From NCBI GenBank assembly GCA_951813535.1, contig OX638345.1, positions 2,291,158-2,355,157 on the forward strand: a stretch of DNA of 64,000 nucleotides, read 5' to 3'. Shown here piece by piece: positions 1 through 62,018 of this stretch (position 1 is its first letter; every line of letters starts with the position of its first letter). The DNA is from an uncultured Dehalococcoidia bacterium (GTDB lineage: Bacteria > Chloroflexota > Dehalococcoidia > Lucifugimonadales > UBA3495). A program made the position numbers and the translations under genes. A model generated the notes under the pieces. The model saw only the letters and a list, made by a program, of their open reading frames with translations. It was not told the origin of the DNA and did not search any database.

Positions 1-277
1 CGGTGCGGCCCGACAAGTCGATGGGCGCGTCAGCCAGTCCCAGGGCCGGAATCAACTTCTTGGGGTAGTAACCTATGATGACCTCGGCGCCGTCAATGAT
101 GGTCACCGGCGCGGACAGGATGCCGCGCGATTTCAGGTCTTCCCTTGCCGGCTCGTCGGTCAACAGGTCGTGGTGTTCATACTGAACACCGTTGGACGCC
201 AGGAATTCCTCCAGCGTCCGGCAGCTGAATCAACCAGGGTTGGTGTAGACGTGGACTTCTCGCTGTGCGGTTGTCAT
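1..277 (-). CDS. Glutaredoxin-like selenoprotein (UGA-containing, runs off left edge)
   Basis: Reading from the ATG at 277 gives a thioredoxin-fold glutaredoxin/NrdH-type protein: strand VHVYTNPG, then an in-frame TGA (232-230), then FSCRTLEEFLASNG, the cis-Pro region (SAPV) and the IDGAEVIIGYYPKKL C-terminal signature. The TGA sits exactly where the first Cys of C-x-x-C belongs and the second Cys is kept, so the motif reads U-F-S-C. About 92 codons are visible and no other stop interrupts them. A Shine-Dalgarno (GAGGT) lies 9 nt before the ATG. It starts 25 nt after the GMC oxidoreductase stop, so the two are probably co-transcribed. Known: bacterial Sec-glutaredoxins exist, and Sec insertion needs SelA, SelB, SelC and SelD; selA is in this window. 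Inference: a thiol/selenol redox protein. The alternative, a nonsense mutant, is less likely because the stop hits only the catalytic Cys codon. Confidence 0.82.
194..219 (-). promoter_or_regulatory. Candidate bacterial SECIS hairpin after the UGA codon
   Basis: Ten nucleotides after the UGA (232-230, minus strand) GGACGC (219-214) pairs perfectly with GCGTCC (199-194). The enclosed 14 nt can close further through AGG/CCT around an AATT loop. Bacterial SECIS elements are hairpins inside the coding sequence immediately downstream of the UGA that bind SelB. Position and size fit; the primary sequence of the apical loop cannot be checked against this organism's SelB. Confidence 0.5.
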
Positions 278-302
278 GGTTATTTACCTCGCGCTTTTTG
301 GT

Positions 303-1841
303 CTATTCCCCGGAGCGGAACCAGTCGGATTTCCGTTCGGCGATCATGATCGTGGTGCAGTTGGTGTTGGCGCGGATGCAGTCAGGCATCACCGAGGCGT
401 CGGCCACATGGAGGTTTTCCATGCCGTGGACGCGGCAATGCTGGTCGACAACCGCCATGGGATCATCGGCCGGCCCGATCTTGCAGGTGCCGGAGATGTG
501 TTGCGAGGTGCTCACGACCCGCTTCAGCCAATCGTTCAACGCCTCGTCGCTCTCCAGGTCCGCCGGCGACGGGTCCAAAAGTTCGTCTGCGACGTCCCGG
601 TAGTGGTCGCTGTCCAGGAGGTTGACGCACACGCGCACCGCTTCGCGCATCCGCGACAGGTCGAATTCTTCCTGGAAGTAATTGTAGTTCAGATTTGGCT
701 GGTCCTGCGGGTCGGTACTGGCCAAGCGCAATTGCCCTGATCCGATTGCGAGCTCCAGTATGCAGGTGAAGCGAATGCCCTCGGCCTCCAGCGGGTCGCC
801 GGCGATCGGCGACGAGAAGGAAGATTGCATGATCTGGATGTCGTTGCGCAGGTGGCTGCCGGAGGCGGTATAGCGGAGGCACACCTGGGTCCGTGGGGCC
901 GATGGGTCCAGCGGGAAATCGTCCTTGACCTTCACAGGCACGCGAATGTTGGGATGGTCCCGCAGATTCTGGCCGACGCCCGGGAGTTCATGCACCACTG
1001 GGATGCCCATCTCACGCAGGTGATCGGCCGGACCAACGCCCGACAGCAGGAGCAACTGTGGCGAAGCGATCGCCCCGGAGCTCAGGATGATGTCGTCGGC
1101 TTCCACGGTGAACACCTCACCGCCGCTTTCCACCTCAACGCCCACTGCCTTCTTGCCTTCGAAGATGATCCTCCGGCAGGTGACGTTGGGACGGATGGTC
1201 AGGTTGAGTCGGTGCCTCGCCTCGCGAAGGTACGTGATCGACGTGCTCATGCGCACGCCGTTGGGGTTGTTCATCGGCACGGGACCAACGCCACCCGAGT
1301 CCGGGTTGTTCATGTCCGGGTCGTGAGGATGGCCGGCGTCGCGGCACGCGTTCCAAAAGGCCACCTGAGCGGGCAGCCAATCTTCCTGGCGGTGCCGTCG
1401 CACCGGAATGGGTCCGGTATTGCCGTGGAAGTCGTCGCTGATGTCAACGTCTGTTTCCATCTTCCGGAAATAGGGCAGGCATTCAGTGAACTTCCATTCG
1501 TCGTTACCCAGCGCCGCCCAGGCGTCATAGTCTTCGGGGAGGCCACGGAGCAGCACCTGGCCGTTGATGGCAGACGACCCGCCGACCACTTTGCCGCGTG
1601 GGACAGGCATCGGGTTAGCCTGGCCTGGGTTCTGCGCCCAGAAGGTCCAGTTATGGGGCGCGTCTACCGCAGAAGCGGTCTGGTCGTATCCGTACTTCAG
1701 ATCATCCGGATAGAGTTCAAAATCGGGATAGTCCGGTCCCGCCTCAAGCAGGAGCACGGACCGGTCTGGATCTTCGGTCAGCCGCGCCGCCATGGTGCAG
1801 CCGGCGGAACCCGCGCCGATAATGATTACGTCGTACTTCAT
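303..1841 (-). CDS. GMC family FAD-dependent oxidoreductase
   Basis: A 512-residue flavoenzyme of the glucose-methanol-choline family, which oxidises alcohol groups and passes electrons to oxygen or another acceptor. The N-terminal FAD motif IIIGAGSAGC (residues 5-14) is followed by VPRGKVVGGSSAING, the second family signature, and LSSGAIASPQLLLLSGVGP in the middle. The C-terminal substrate domain carries the active-site histidine region (STSQHISGTCKIGP) and NTNCTTIMIAER. The ATG at 1841 is chosen because AGGAGG lies 8 nt upstream and the FAD strand starts there. It is followed 25 nt later by the Sec-glutaredoxin. A paralogue of the same length is at 26381-27931. Substrate cannot be told from sequence. 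Confidence 0.9.
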   Translation of the reverse strand: MKYDVIIIGAGSAGCTMAARLTEDPDRSVLLLEAGPDYPDFELYPDDLKYGYDQTASAVDAPHNWTFWAQNPGQANPMPVPRGKVVGGSSAINGQVLLRGLPEDYDAWAALGNDEWKFTECLPYFRKMETDVDISDDFHGNTGPIPVRRHRQEDWLPAQVAFWNACRDAGHPHDPDMNNPDSGGVGPVPMNNPNGVRMSTSITYLREARHRLNLTIRPNVTCRRIIFEGKKAVGVEVESGGEVFTVEADDIILSSGAIASPQLLLLSGVGPADHLREMGIPVVHELPGVGQNLRDHPNIRVPVKVKDDFPLDPSAPRTQVCLRYTASGSHLRNDIQIMQSSFSSPIAGDPLEAEGIRFTCILELAIGSGQLRLASTDPQDQPNLNYNYFQEEFDLSRMREAVRVCVNLLDSDHYRDVADELLDPSPADLESDEALNDWLKRVVSTSQHISGTCKIGPADDPMAVVDQHCRVHGMENLHVADASVMPDCIRANTNCTTIMIAERKSDWFRSGE

Positions 1842-2063: not shown

Positions 2064-2546
2064 ATGACCACCCAGACACGTTCCCAGAAAGTCGCCGCCT
2101 TTGGTTCCGCCTATGAAACTCTCATTGCGGGACTGGAAGATTTCCCGAAAGAGATGTGGGACTTCCGAGATGAACACGGCTGCTGGAGTATCCACGAGCA
2201 TCTGGTCCATATCGCCGACAGCGAGGCCAACAGCTACATCCGTTGCCGCCGCTTCATCGCCGAGCCGGGCAAACCCCTGATGGCCTACGACGAAAACGGC
2301 TGGGCCAGCGCCCTGGGCTATGCCGACCGGTCGGTGAGCGAGGCCCTGGAACTGTTCCGGATCCTCCGGCAACAGACTTATGACCTCATAAATGCCCTGC
2401 CCGAATCGGCCTGGGCCAACACCTGTTACCACCCCGAGAACGGGGACATGACGCTGGACGACTGGCTGGACGTGTACGCCGTCCACATCCCGGAGCACCT
2501 CCAATACATGCGGGAAAATCACAACGCCTGGCTCGCCTCACGCTAA
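2064..2546 (+). CDS. DinB-fold metal-binding protein
   Basis: A 160-residue four-helix-bundle protein of the DinB/YfiT superfamily. Family features seen: WSIHEHLVHIADSE (residues 41-54), with the conserved His of helix 2, and a C-terminal VHIPEHLQYM helix that supplies two further His ligands for a divalent metal. Members are often thiol-dependent S-transferases or uncharacterised stress proteins; no specific reaction can be given. The ATG has GAGGAAA just upstream. It is divergent from the GMC oxidoreductase; the 222-nt gap contains a TATAAT at 1941-1946 without a clear -35 box. Confidence 0.8.
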   Translation: MTTQTRSQKVAAFGSAYETLIAGLEDFPKEMWDFRDEHGCWSIHEHLVHIADSEANSYIRCRRFIAEPGKPLMAYDENGWASALGYADRSVSEALELFRILRQQTYDLINALPESAWANTCYHPENGDMTLDDWLDVYAVHIPEHLQYMRENHNAWLASR

Positions 2547-44221: not shown

Positions 44222-44326
44222 TTGAACACAGCGATGTTCGGCCAGTGGTGGCCGCGATTGGCAAGCGCCAATTTTCTCAATCCACAGGAAAACCGACTCA
44301 CCTTCCACTTGCAGGAGGATCAATGA
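44222..44326 (+). CDS. Short upstream ORF coupled to the PstS-like gene
   Basis: 34 residues starting at a TTG with GAGGAGGT 7 nt upstream: (M)NTAMFGQWWPRLASAN...HLQEDQ. Its TGA overlaps the ATG of the next gene (ATGA), and the AGGAGG for that gene lies within its last codons. No family recognised. It may be a translated leader that controls the phosphate-binding protein by coupling. Codon-level evidence is limited by size. Confidence 0.5.
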   Translation: MNTAMFGQWWPRLASANFLNPQENRLTFHLQEDQ

Positions 44327-46515
44327 TTTCCGCCACGATGGCTACTCTAAAGCAAATTCCATTTCGGTTGCTGTTGGCCGTTGCCGCGATGGGCTGCGCC
44401 GCCGTTCTGATGGGCGCCGCCTGTAGTGCCGCGGACCAAGCGCCCGCCACGCAGGCCGGCTCCGGCGCCGCTGCGGGTTCTGCGGCGGCCGACAACACAA
44501 CCTCCGGGAGTACTACTGCGAGCAGTTCTGCCACCACAACCTCCGGGAGTACGACTGGAAGCAGTTCCGCCACCACCGGATCTACCGGTTCAAGCGCCGG
44601 TCAGGCGGAAAAGGCAGTCGACCCCGGCATGTACGCATCACTGTCCGGCGACATACCGATTGACGGTTCGTCCACGGTGTTCCCGATCACGGAGGCGGTC
44701 GCCGAAGAGTTCGGCGGCCTGACCGACGACAACGTTCGCGTGGTGGTGGGCATTTCGGGAACGGGCGGGGGCTTCAAGAAGTTCTGCGCGAACGAGACCG
44801 TGATCTCCGACGCGTCGCGCCCCATCAAGCAGAAGGAAGTTGATCTCTGTTCCGCCGCTGGCGTGGAATACATCGAACTGCCGGTGGCCATCGACGGCCT
44901 GTCCGTCGTGGTGAACCCGCAGAACGATTTTGTGGACTGCCTGTCGGTTGAGCAGCTGAACCAGATCTGGAGCCCGGAGTCCGAGGGAGTGGTGACGCAC
45001 TGGAACCAGGTGAACCCGGAGTGGCCGGCGGAGGAGATCAAGATGTACGCGCCGGGCGTTGACTCCGGAACGTTCGACTACTTCACCGAGGCGATCAACG
45101 GCGACGGTGGCGTTTCCCGTGGCGACTTCGTAGCGTCGGAGGACGACAACGTGCTGGTGCAGGGAGTGTCAGGCGACAAGTACAGCATCGGTTACTTCGG
45201 CTACGCGTACTACGTGGAGAACAAGGACAAGGTAAAGGTGGTGCCGATCGACGGGGGCAACGGCTGCGTTGCGCCGACGGATGGGGCCATCAACAACGGG
45301 TCGTACGCGCCGCTGAGCCGGCCGTTGTTCATCTACGTGCGGTCTGACGCTGCGCAGCAGGAACACATAGCGGAGTTCGTGCGGTACTACCTGAGCCCGA
45401 GCGGCCAGGAGTTGGCGGCGTCGGTGGGATACATCCCGTTCCCGCAGGATGTTTATGAGCTCGGCTTGACCAAGTTCAATTCGGGGACAGTCGGAACCGT
45501 GTTCGGCGGCGACGACGCCTTCAAGGGATCCGTTGTCGACGGGTTGTCCGGTGGCGCCATGACGGAAGACAAGATGACCCACATGGTCGATTACGCGAGC
45601 CTCTCGGGCGACATTCCTATCGATGGATCGTCCACGGTGTTCCCGATCACGGAAGCGGTTGCCGAGGAGTTCGGCGGCCTGACCGACGACAATGTCCGCG
45701 TGGTGGTGGGCATCTCCGGCACGGGCGGCGGTTTCAAGAAGTTCTGCGCCAACGAGACCGTGATCTCCGACGCGTCGCGCCCCATCAAGCAGAAGGAAGT
45801 TGACCTGTGTTCCGCCGCTGGCGTGGAATACATCGAACTGCCGGTGGCCATCGACGGTCTGTCGGTGGTGGTGAACCCCAGCAACGAGTTCGTGGATTGT
45901 TTGACGGTTGAGCAGCTGAACAGGATTTGGAGTCCGGAGTCTGAGGGCGTGGTGACGCACTGGAACCAGGTGAACCCGGAGTGGCCGGCGGAGGAGATCA
46001 AGATGTACGCGCCGGGCGTTGACTCCGGAACGTTCGACTACTTCACCGAGGCGATCAACGGCGACGGTGGCGTCTCGCGCGGCGACTTTGTGGCGTCGGA
46101 GGACGACAACGTGCTGGTGCAGGGAGTCGCTGGTGACAGGTACAGCATCGGTTACTTCGGCTACGCGTACTACGTGGAGAACAAGGACAAGGTAAAGGTG
46201 GTGCCGATCGACGGGGGCAACGGCTGCGTTGCGCCGGCGGATGAGGCGATCAACAACGGGTCGTACGCGCCGCTGAGCCGGCCGTTGTTCATCTACGTGC
46301 GGTCTGACGCAGCGCAGCAGGAACACATAGCGGAGTTCGTGCGGTACTACCTGAGCCCGAGCGGGCAGGAGTTGGCAGCTTCGGTGGGATACATCCCGTT
46401 CCCGCAGGAAGTGTATGACCTTGGCTTGACCAAGTTCAATTCGGGGACAGTCGGAACCGTGTTCGGCGGCGACGACGCCTTCAAGGGACCCGTTACCCAG
46501 GGGCTGATGAAGTAA
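44323..46515 (+). CDS. pstS: Double-domain phosphate-binding (PstS-like) lipoprotein
   Basis: 730 residues: signal peptide with a cysteine after LMGAA, a Ser/Thr/Gly-rich linker (about residues 45-100), then two PBP domains of about 320 residues (residues 104-423 and 424-730) that are nearly identical. Each has the phosphate-site motifs [34 protein letters not shown] and DSGTFDYF. A single PstS is usually about 330-400 residues. It binds phosphate (or a related oxyanion) outside the membrane. No pstC, pstA, pstB or phoU is nearby. AGGAGG lies 4 nt before the ATG, overlapping the short upstream ORF. Confidence 0.9.
44497..44574 (+). repeat. Two 39-bp tandem repeats in the linker of PstS
   Basis: Units 44497-44535 and 44536-44574 both start ACAACCTCCGGGAGTAC and end CCACC, with four or five changes. 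They encode the TTSGSTT-x-SSSAT repeats of the flexible linker between lipid anchor and binding domains. Confidence 0.8.
44632..46495 (+). repeat. Intragenic 960-bp duplication (two PstS domains)
   Basis: Unit 1 is 44632-45591 and unit 2 starts at 45592, an offset of exactly 960 bp. Long tracts are identical (44990-45113 with 45950-46073; 45181-45276 with 46141-46236), separated by tracts with many silent changes (for example around 44881-44988 with 45841-45948). Such a mosaic is expected from duplication followed by gene conversion. Confidence 0.9.
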
Positions 46516-60390: not shown

Positions 60391-61773
60391 TTACCGCGCC
60401 AACACCGCTGCAACAGCGTTTATTACGTCGTCGTCCTGTTCTGGCAGCACGGTCCTGGGATCGAGCCGCACCGTATCTTCTTCGATCCTGGCTACGACCG
60501 GAGTTGGTTGTCCACGCAGGGCCGACAAAATTGCTTCCGGCGTACCGTTTGCGGACGGATTGATTGCCAATGCCCAGGACGGCAATGTCTCACCGGGCAG
60601 GCTCCCGCCCCCTATCGCCGACCGAGCCGGCTCAACACCCGCTTCGACCTGGTGATTTGCCAGGGTAACGCGCCATTTGTCCGCCCGTGCCCTTACATCT
60701 TCCGCAGTCGCCGATATCATGCGCCAAACGGGCACCCTCGTTTCGGCCTCGCCCATGACGTAGTGCGCCAACGTTGCCGTCAAGCTGGCCAGGCTAATTT
60801 TGTCGATCCGCACCGCGCGCGCCAACGGATGTCTCTCCAGCTGCGCGACCAGATCCCGTTTGCCCACTACGATCCCGGCCTGGGGACCACCCAGCAACTT
60901 GTCACCTGAGAAGAACACCAGGCCGACCCCCGCCGCAATGCTTTCCTGTGGGGTCGGCTCATGGGCCAAGCCATATCGTTCGGTCGGCAGCAATGCTCCG
61001 CTCCCGACGTCGTGCAGCACTGGGACGCCCGAGGTTTCTCCCAGCGCCACAAGGTCGCGCTCGTCCACAAACGCGGTGAAACCCTCCACCCTGAAGTTGC
61101 TGGCATGCGCTTTGAGAAATGCTCCGGTCTGATCGTTCATTGCATCGGCGTAGTCCCGCACGTACGTCCGGTTGGTGGTCCCCACGTCAACCAGGGTGCA
61201 GCCGCTTTGCCGCAGTACGTCCGGTATCCGGAAACCGCCGCCAATTTCGACCGCTTCGCCCCGGGAAACTATGACCTCACGGCCAGCAGCCAAAGCCGAC
61301 AACCCCAGCAGTAGGGCCGAGGCGTTGTTATTCACCGCCAGCGCCGCTTCCGCCCCGGTGAGGCGACGCAGCAGCGATTGCAGGTGTGCCTGACGTGACC
61401 CTCTTCGTCCGGTACCGAGATCGATTTCCAGGTCCGAATATCCCCGGCCCACCGCGTCGGCAGCAGCCAGCGCGGCATCGCTGAGCGGCGCGCGACCCAG
61501 GTTGGTGTGGATGACAACGCCCGTCGCATTGATGACCGGGCGGGGCGACGGCTCAGACAGGCCTGCTATCAGGTCAAGGACCGCTTCCGCAATCTGGAGT
61601 CCTGGCGGCGCTGCGTTGCCGGCCAGCACACTTTTCCGGATTCCGCCCAGCACCTCTCGGGTTAGTTCCACCACTACTTCGCGTCCGTGGGCGTCCACGG
61701 CGGCGGACAGCATCTCACCGTTGACCACGCGCTCGACGCTGGGCAGGTTGCGGAGTTCGGTGCTGATTGTCAT
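60391..61773 (-). CDS. selA: L-seryl-tRNA(Sec) selenium transferase
   Basis: 460 residues. PLP enzyme that converts Ser-tRNA(Sec) to Sec-tRNA(Sec) with selenophosphate. Seen: VINATGVVIHTNLGRAPL (signature, about residue 88), GTGRRGSRQAHLQ, VNNNASALLLGL, VDVGTTNRTYVRDY and FSGDKLLGGPQAG with the PLP Lys. The start at 61773 is set by family length; in-frame ATGs lie at 61839 and further upstream, and no strong ribosome site decides. selB, selC and selD are not in the window, but the UGA-containing glutaredoxin is. Confidence 0.93.
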   Translation of the reverse strand: MTISTELRNLPSVERVVNGEMLSAAVDAHGREVVVELTREVLGGIRKSVLAGNAAPPGLQIAEAVLDLIAGLSEPSPRPVINATGVVIHTNLGRAPLSDAALAAADAVGRGYSDLEIDLGTGRRGSRQAHLQSLLRRLTGAEAALAVNNNASALLLGLSALAAGREVIVSRGEAVEIGGGFRIPDVLRQSGCTLVDVGTTNRTYVRDYADAMNDQTGAFLKAHASNFRVEGFTAFVDERDLVALGETSGVPVLHDVGSGALLPTERYGLAHEPTPQESIAAGVGLVFFSGDKLLGGPQAGIVVGKRDLVAQLERHPLARAVRIDKISLASLTATLAHYVMGEAETRVPVWRMISATAEDVRARADKWRVTLANHQVEAGVEPARSAIGGGSLPGETLPSWALAINPSANGTPEAILSALRGQPTPVVARIEEDTVRLDPRTVLPEQDDDVINAVAAVLAR

Positions 61774-62018
61774 GGAATGCCAGGACCCGATGGCGACGAC
61801 CGACGTGGCGACCCCAGCGGTCGGCTGGTATTCTACCATCTCACCGTACGGTTGCTGATGCCGTTGGAACGGAATCGGTTGCCGGGCTGCACCCCGCCAC
61901 CAACCATTATGGCGATTGTGCCTGTCGATCCGGCACAGCGCATTCCTGCGACGCCCCGGATGCGCTATCATAGATGCCGTTGAACCGTGCAGCAAATTGG
62001 CGGTTGGAACGGAACATC

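Follow-up and report, generated by a model that had tools for sequence, protein, structure and literature searches.

A probable selenocysteine glutaredoxin-DinB fusion protein of uncultured Chloroflexota encoded across an in-frame UGA codon

The gene that begins at position 277 of the window (the whole stretch of 64,000 nucleotides analysed here, G000:C1:2291158-2355157) most probably encodes a 259-residue selenoprotein in which a selenocysteine glutaredoxin is joined to a DinB-type domain, with a putative role in selenium-dependent thiol transfer; we put the probability of this reading at about 0.93. The whole gene extends over G000:C1:2290655-2291434 (259 codons) and has its stop at L006:9498 (G000:C1:2290655). 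From its ATG on the minus strand the product starts with MTTAQREVHVYTNPG-U-FSC and the frame contains just one TGA, which falls, as the first-pass annotation had claimed, on the first cysteine of a CxxC motif whose second cysteine is kept; the proposed ribosome-binding site in front of the ATG is present as well (Table 1). That annotation had described positions 1-277 as a glutaredoxin. The glutaredoxin domain has held up, but the supposed end of the gene is the edge of the window, and the DinB-type domain, which was missed because the window stops inside the gene, formed no part of the claim. The label of a glutaredoxin is therefore incomplete, since the gene is a glutaredoxin-DinB fusion. 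It had also been predicted that a plain gene caller would miss or truncate the gene, and indeed the mechanical list of open reading frames opens it at an internal TTG 3' of the UGA, leaving 221 amino acids.

Table 1. Features at the putative selenoprotein gene and related features of the window (window coordinates).
Feature	Position	Strand	Remarks
Putative Sec glutaredoxin-DinB gene, first 92 codons	1..277	-	rest of gene past window edge
Second hairpin, GGUGUUC-AGUAU-GAACACC	172..190	-	nt 43-61 from UGA; nearly unchanged in clade A
SECIS-like hairpin	194..219	-	nt 14-39 from U of UGA; paired changes at columns 18-35 and 19-34
TGC codon 19, second (resolving) cysteine of UxxC	221..223	-	invariant in all members
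TGA codon 16, probably read as selenocysteine	230..232	-	opens the U-F-S-C redox motif
GAGG, ribosome-binding-site-like	287..290	-	9 nt 5' of ATG; read from sequence
GMC oxidoreductase	303..1841	-	25 nt upstream of fusion gene; probable start 1841 (MKYDVII), ORF in list opens at 1916
selA, L-seryl-tRNA(Sec) selenium transferase	60391..61995	-	Pfam SelA 443.7 bits

SelA, SelB, SelD and tRNA-Sec jointly insert selenocysteine at a UGA that is accompanied by a suitable hairpin. All four components are encoded in the host genome. The selA gene had already been noticed in the window and is matched well by its Pfam model; the search for the others, which had been proposed as a check, yielded selB (G000:C1:705707-707563; 354.8 bits, cut-off 242.25), selD (L057, G000:C1:1105770-1106690; 370 bits) and the selC product, a tRNA-Sec with anticodon TCA (G000:C1:2115010-2115102; 66.4 bits). 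The selD gene has one TGA of its own, within the motif CAGUAAK, which is the known selenocysteine site of this protein, so that SelD of the host appears from its sequence to be a selenoprotein itself. A strong tRNA-Sec with TCA anticodon was found in all 12 tested genomes that have a UGA glutaredoxin, compared with 9 of 22 control genomes in which no such glutaredoxin had been seen (tRNA-Sec above 60 bits; Fisher p = 6.5e-4, the window's genome counted in). The in-frame UGA also aligns with the Cys/Sec position of a redox family. The reading of codon 16 as a probable selenocysteine is strongly supported.

To see which residue relatives carry at this site had likewise been suggested. The 197 genomes of the class contained four further full-length fusions with a single TGA apiece, and a search of the phylum added three more from other classes (G318, G283 and G262), which have TGA at this site too. 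A scan of contigs, which was based on a three-sequence alignment and relied on two short motifs, returned 50 fusion loci, nearly all of them named SAR202, Dehalococcoidia or Chloroflexi. TGA stands at the same codon in 49 of the 49 loci that cover the site (L135 was left out, its sequence being cut before it) and Cys in none, which exceeds chance by far, the loci being related and thus not representing 49 independent events. Cys versions were not selected against, as one of the two motifs ended in Cys, and none was found among these 49 loci; Cys fusions may nevertheless exist outside the Chloroflexota, as the scan rested on two short motifs. Random residues at the site and further stops behind it, which would have marked a decaying gene, are absent: the TGA is kept, and a further stop occurs in L150 only. 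This locus, the fusion of Bacterium HR23, might contain a frameshift, encode a shortened protein or reflect an assembly error.

The fusions fall into two clades, A (UFSCRTLEEFL; 38 rows including that of the window) and B (UFTCGRTKEFLSS), both of which are present in several assemblies; the tree is unrooted and has long branches on some deep rows. Two clade A genes come from assemblies titled Mesorhizobium and Proteobacteria (L123 and L134), which are probably mislabelled or contaminated bins; the L123 protein is identical to one from Dehalococcoidia. Stand-alone glutaredoxins of the phylum carry either TGA or TGT/TGC at the active-site codon. Many of them have TGA at the first active-site cysteine followed by a hairpin that often encodes KEFLS (L019, L020, L023, L026, L032, L039, L041, L042, L044, L066, L067, L080 and L087).

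The hairpin that had been reported behind the UGA proved to be real. The 63 nt from the UGA onwards fold with -26.2 kcal/mol (z = -3.9), none of 200 shuffles being as stable, and paired changes among relatives are seen in the stem. A bacterial SECIS element is a hairpin directly after the UGA with a loop-opening G 16-37 nt away. At about 21 nt from the UGA, a G opens the apical loop of the first hairpin; no SECIS-type Rfam family matched in the window at gathering thresholds. Over the 38 clade A rows, 87.9% of the cells of the two-hairpin structure are paired, and neither the paired fraction nor the covariation score was reached by any of 500 shuffles, which do not remove relatedness, or by any slid version. 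The second hairpin, with 96.3% of cells paired, is better conserved in clade A (L102-L141) than the SECIS-like one and is absent in clade B. Nowhere in the gene is synonymous variation lower than at codons 27-38, and at codons 13-17 it is low as well. In an independent set, the 42 nt after the active-site codon fold more stably in 25 UGA glutaredoxins than in 31 Cys glutaredoxins (-12.9 versus -8.0 kcal/mol, p = 1.3e-5, base composition being unmatched).

Purifying selection acts on the frame before as well as behind the UGA. The 11 closest sequences give pN/pS values of 0.17 for the part that precedes the UGA, 0.05 for codons 17-42, 0.10 for codons 43-90 and 0.19 for the DinB part. At codons 17-42 the low pS does not inflate the ratio of 0.05; pN and pS are both low there, which fits a double constraint on protein and RNA.

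Several other explanations of the in-frame stop have to be weighed against these data. A bare stop within a frame might simply belong to a pseudogene that acquired it by chance, or the TGA might be an error of sequencing or assembly, yet the same codon recurs throughout independent assemblies from many studies, the RNA structure is conserved and selection acts on the protein before and behind the TGA; on the grounds of codon conservation and purifying selection downstream we rejected this explanation, which is hardly credible. It is also very improbable that the UGA is a real stop, with the DinB part alone made from an internal TTG or GTG and the 15 codons and hairpins serving as a regulatory leader. 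Such a leader would be in keeping with the two conserved hairpins, in which synonymous change is suppressed, and with the internal TTG frame; however, both the second cysteine and the residues that precede the TGA are conserved as protein, Cys codons occupy the exact site in stand-alone homologues, and a protein started at the TTG, which lies after residue 38, would lack the first strand and helix of the glutaredoxin fold. These Cys codons could in turn suggest a recoded genome in which another tRNA reads UGA as Cys (or Trp). TGA is however a normal stop elsewhere, ending 11 of the 28 long open reading frames of the window, whereby genome-wide recoding was rejected, and in addition the full selenocysteine machinery with a Sec-containing SelD is present and the hairpin is placed where a bacterial SECIS is expected, so that this possibility too is very slight.

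Both domains of the predicted selenoprotein are recognised by Pfam, Glutaredoxin (PF00462) at residues 8-63 with 36.3 bits (cut-off 22.9) and, with modest scores, DinB-type domains at residues 111-241 (DinB_2 30.3 bits, cut-off 24.8; DinB 29.7 bits, cut-off 23). Over 54 rows G15, U16, C19, L26, P57, G69, H135, H220 and H224 are invariant, the last three being the histidines of the DinB metal site. The structure was predicted for the L102 protein, which is 95% identical and has C in place of U (pLDDT 89.8, pTM 0.83). Residues 7-80 of the model superimpose on cGrx1 with Z 14.0 and an rmsd of 0.8 A over 73 residues, and the thioredoxin fold with its active-site pair and cis-Pro position (P57) is present. 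Residues 89-242 match DinB-type folds with Z up to 15.8 and the mycothiol S-transferase of Mycobacterium tuberculosis with Z 12.5; since helical bundles reach Z of about 13 by their common arrangement, the DinB assignment is carried by the sequence and the histidines. A kinship to glutathione S-transferases was considered and discarded, the matches in the fold list having an rmsd of 5-16 A, which we take as a shared layout of thioredoxin plus helices. In BstA of Bacillus subtilis the metal is bound by H67, H160 and H164, which follow the same i, i+4 pattern (PMC5815605).

From these sequence features we infer a selenium-dependent enzyme of thiol transfer or dethiolation. The selenolate of Sec16 would attack a disulfide or a mixed disulfide in which a thiol is bound to a protein or small molecule, and Cys19 would resolve it. 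The metal-bound DinB domain might activate a small thiol, which would then be passed to an electrophilic substrate or taken off it, whereby transfer and reduction would be combined on one chain. A serious alternative, to which we give somewhat less than an even chance, accepts the selenoprotein and sees in the DinB part a metal-bound binding or hydrolase domain, the protein being a tethered disulfide reductase. In line with it, none of the markers of bacillithiol, mycothiol or glutathione synthesis that were searched for reached its cut-off in the host genome: the models for BshC and GCS2 (gamma-glutamylcysteine ligase) had no match, and that for MshC gave only matches below cut-off which may be cysteinyl-tRNA synthetases. 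Moreover, the activities within the DinB superfamily are varied, with mycothiol-dependent maleylpyruvate isomerase, ClbS and EgtB/OvsA-type folds among the fold matches. On the other hand, the three metal histidines are invariant, and all eight Bacillus DinB-type proteins that have been tested are metal-dependent bacillithiol transferases (PMC5815605), which argues for thiol transfer. A narrower version of the transfer enzyme, which we consider unlikely, is that of a Sec-obligate family in which the glutaredoxin selenolate would serve the DinB-type metal centre of its own chain as built-in selenol/thiol partner; if this was the case, no free bacillithiol, mycothiol or glutathione would be needed for transfer or removal.

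The GMC oxidoreductase that had been noted directly before the gene is indeed there. Across the family, 27 of the 38 clade A loci that were fetched, and none of clade B, have a GMC oxidoreductase within 4 kb of the fusion, in three arrangements (on the same strand either upstream or downstream, or on the opposite strand upstream). With 17 GMC genes in a genome of 4.38 Mb, about 3.7% would be expected by chance per locus, the loci being related. This linkage supports a functional neighbourhood and, at most, a putative partnership; the possible redox link to the GMC enzyme that had been proposed has gained a recurrent genomic association. The recurrent flavin oxidoreductase suggests that the substrates might be related to products of alcohol or aldehyde oxidation. 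A PAC2-family gene is linked to the fusion in 17 loci. Just past the GMC oxidoreductase, at 2064-2546 (+) of the window, lies a stand-alone DinB-family gene which is also found in the nearest relatives. Elsewhere in the window (44245-46515, +) a substrate-binding-like protein of 756 amino acids is encoded that contains the same domain of about 300 residues twice in tandem.

The fusion would add a conserved, apparently selenocysteine-only enzyme of two domains to the bacterial selenoproteins, in a lineage (SAR202-type) which is abundant and uncultured and occurs in ocean and sponges. As the stop is kept in every relative found, ordinary gene callers would probably truncate the gene, which could hide a conserved family of selenium enzymes, and its members may sit in databases as truncated DinB proteins. 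In sponge symbionts SelA and SelB have been reported to be common while missing in most close references, with no target named (PMC5649159). The closest relative, L102, stems from bin87 of that very study, which makes the fusion gene a concrete candidate client of SelA/SelB. A testable hypothesis on the thiol chemistry of SAR202 is also provided by the pairing of a redox selenol with a thiol-transferase domain.

Selenocysteine glutaredoxins and DinB transferases are each known, and the Sec-only fusion of the two is apparently undescribed: no description of it was found in the open-access literature searched, where the only paper combining selenoprotein, glutaredoxin and DinB was a mercury study in E. 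coli that does not use them in the relevant sense. A review of prokaryotic selenoproteins from 2026 includes a Sec glutaredoxin with UxxC (PF00462), for which it refers to Kim et al. 2011 (Clostridium) (PMC13188914). The likeness lies in the glutaredoxin fold and in the UGA-encoded Sec at the first position of UxxC; the review lists a glutaredoxin only and makes no mention of DinB, whereas the present protein adds the DinB-type domain, with no Cys fusion found in our scan. No NCBIfam model accepts the protein at its cut-off. Over residues 8-76 the best-scoring families are the NrdH/YruB-type glutaredoxins, whose curated cut-offs are not reached (TIGR02194, 43.3 versus 85.75; TIGR02196, 53 versus 88.55) and whose Cys is replaced by Sec. 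The UXX-star families (NF041212, NF041211 and NF041114) are also glutaredoxin-like selenoproteins, but the present protein keeps the second Cys (UxxC), and their models gave 31 bits against a cut-off of 66 (NF041212) and 22.9 against 100. With the S-transferase-like proteins (DinB/YfiT) such as BstA-H of B. subtilis and the mycothiol S-transferase of M. tuberculosis it shares the four-helix fold and the His/His-x3-His triad; these are however single-domain proteins, whereas the protein described here would carry a selenocysteine redox domain at its N-terminus.
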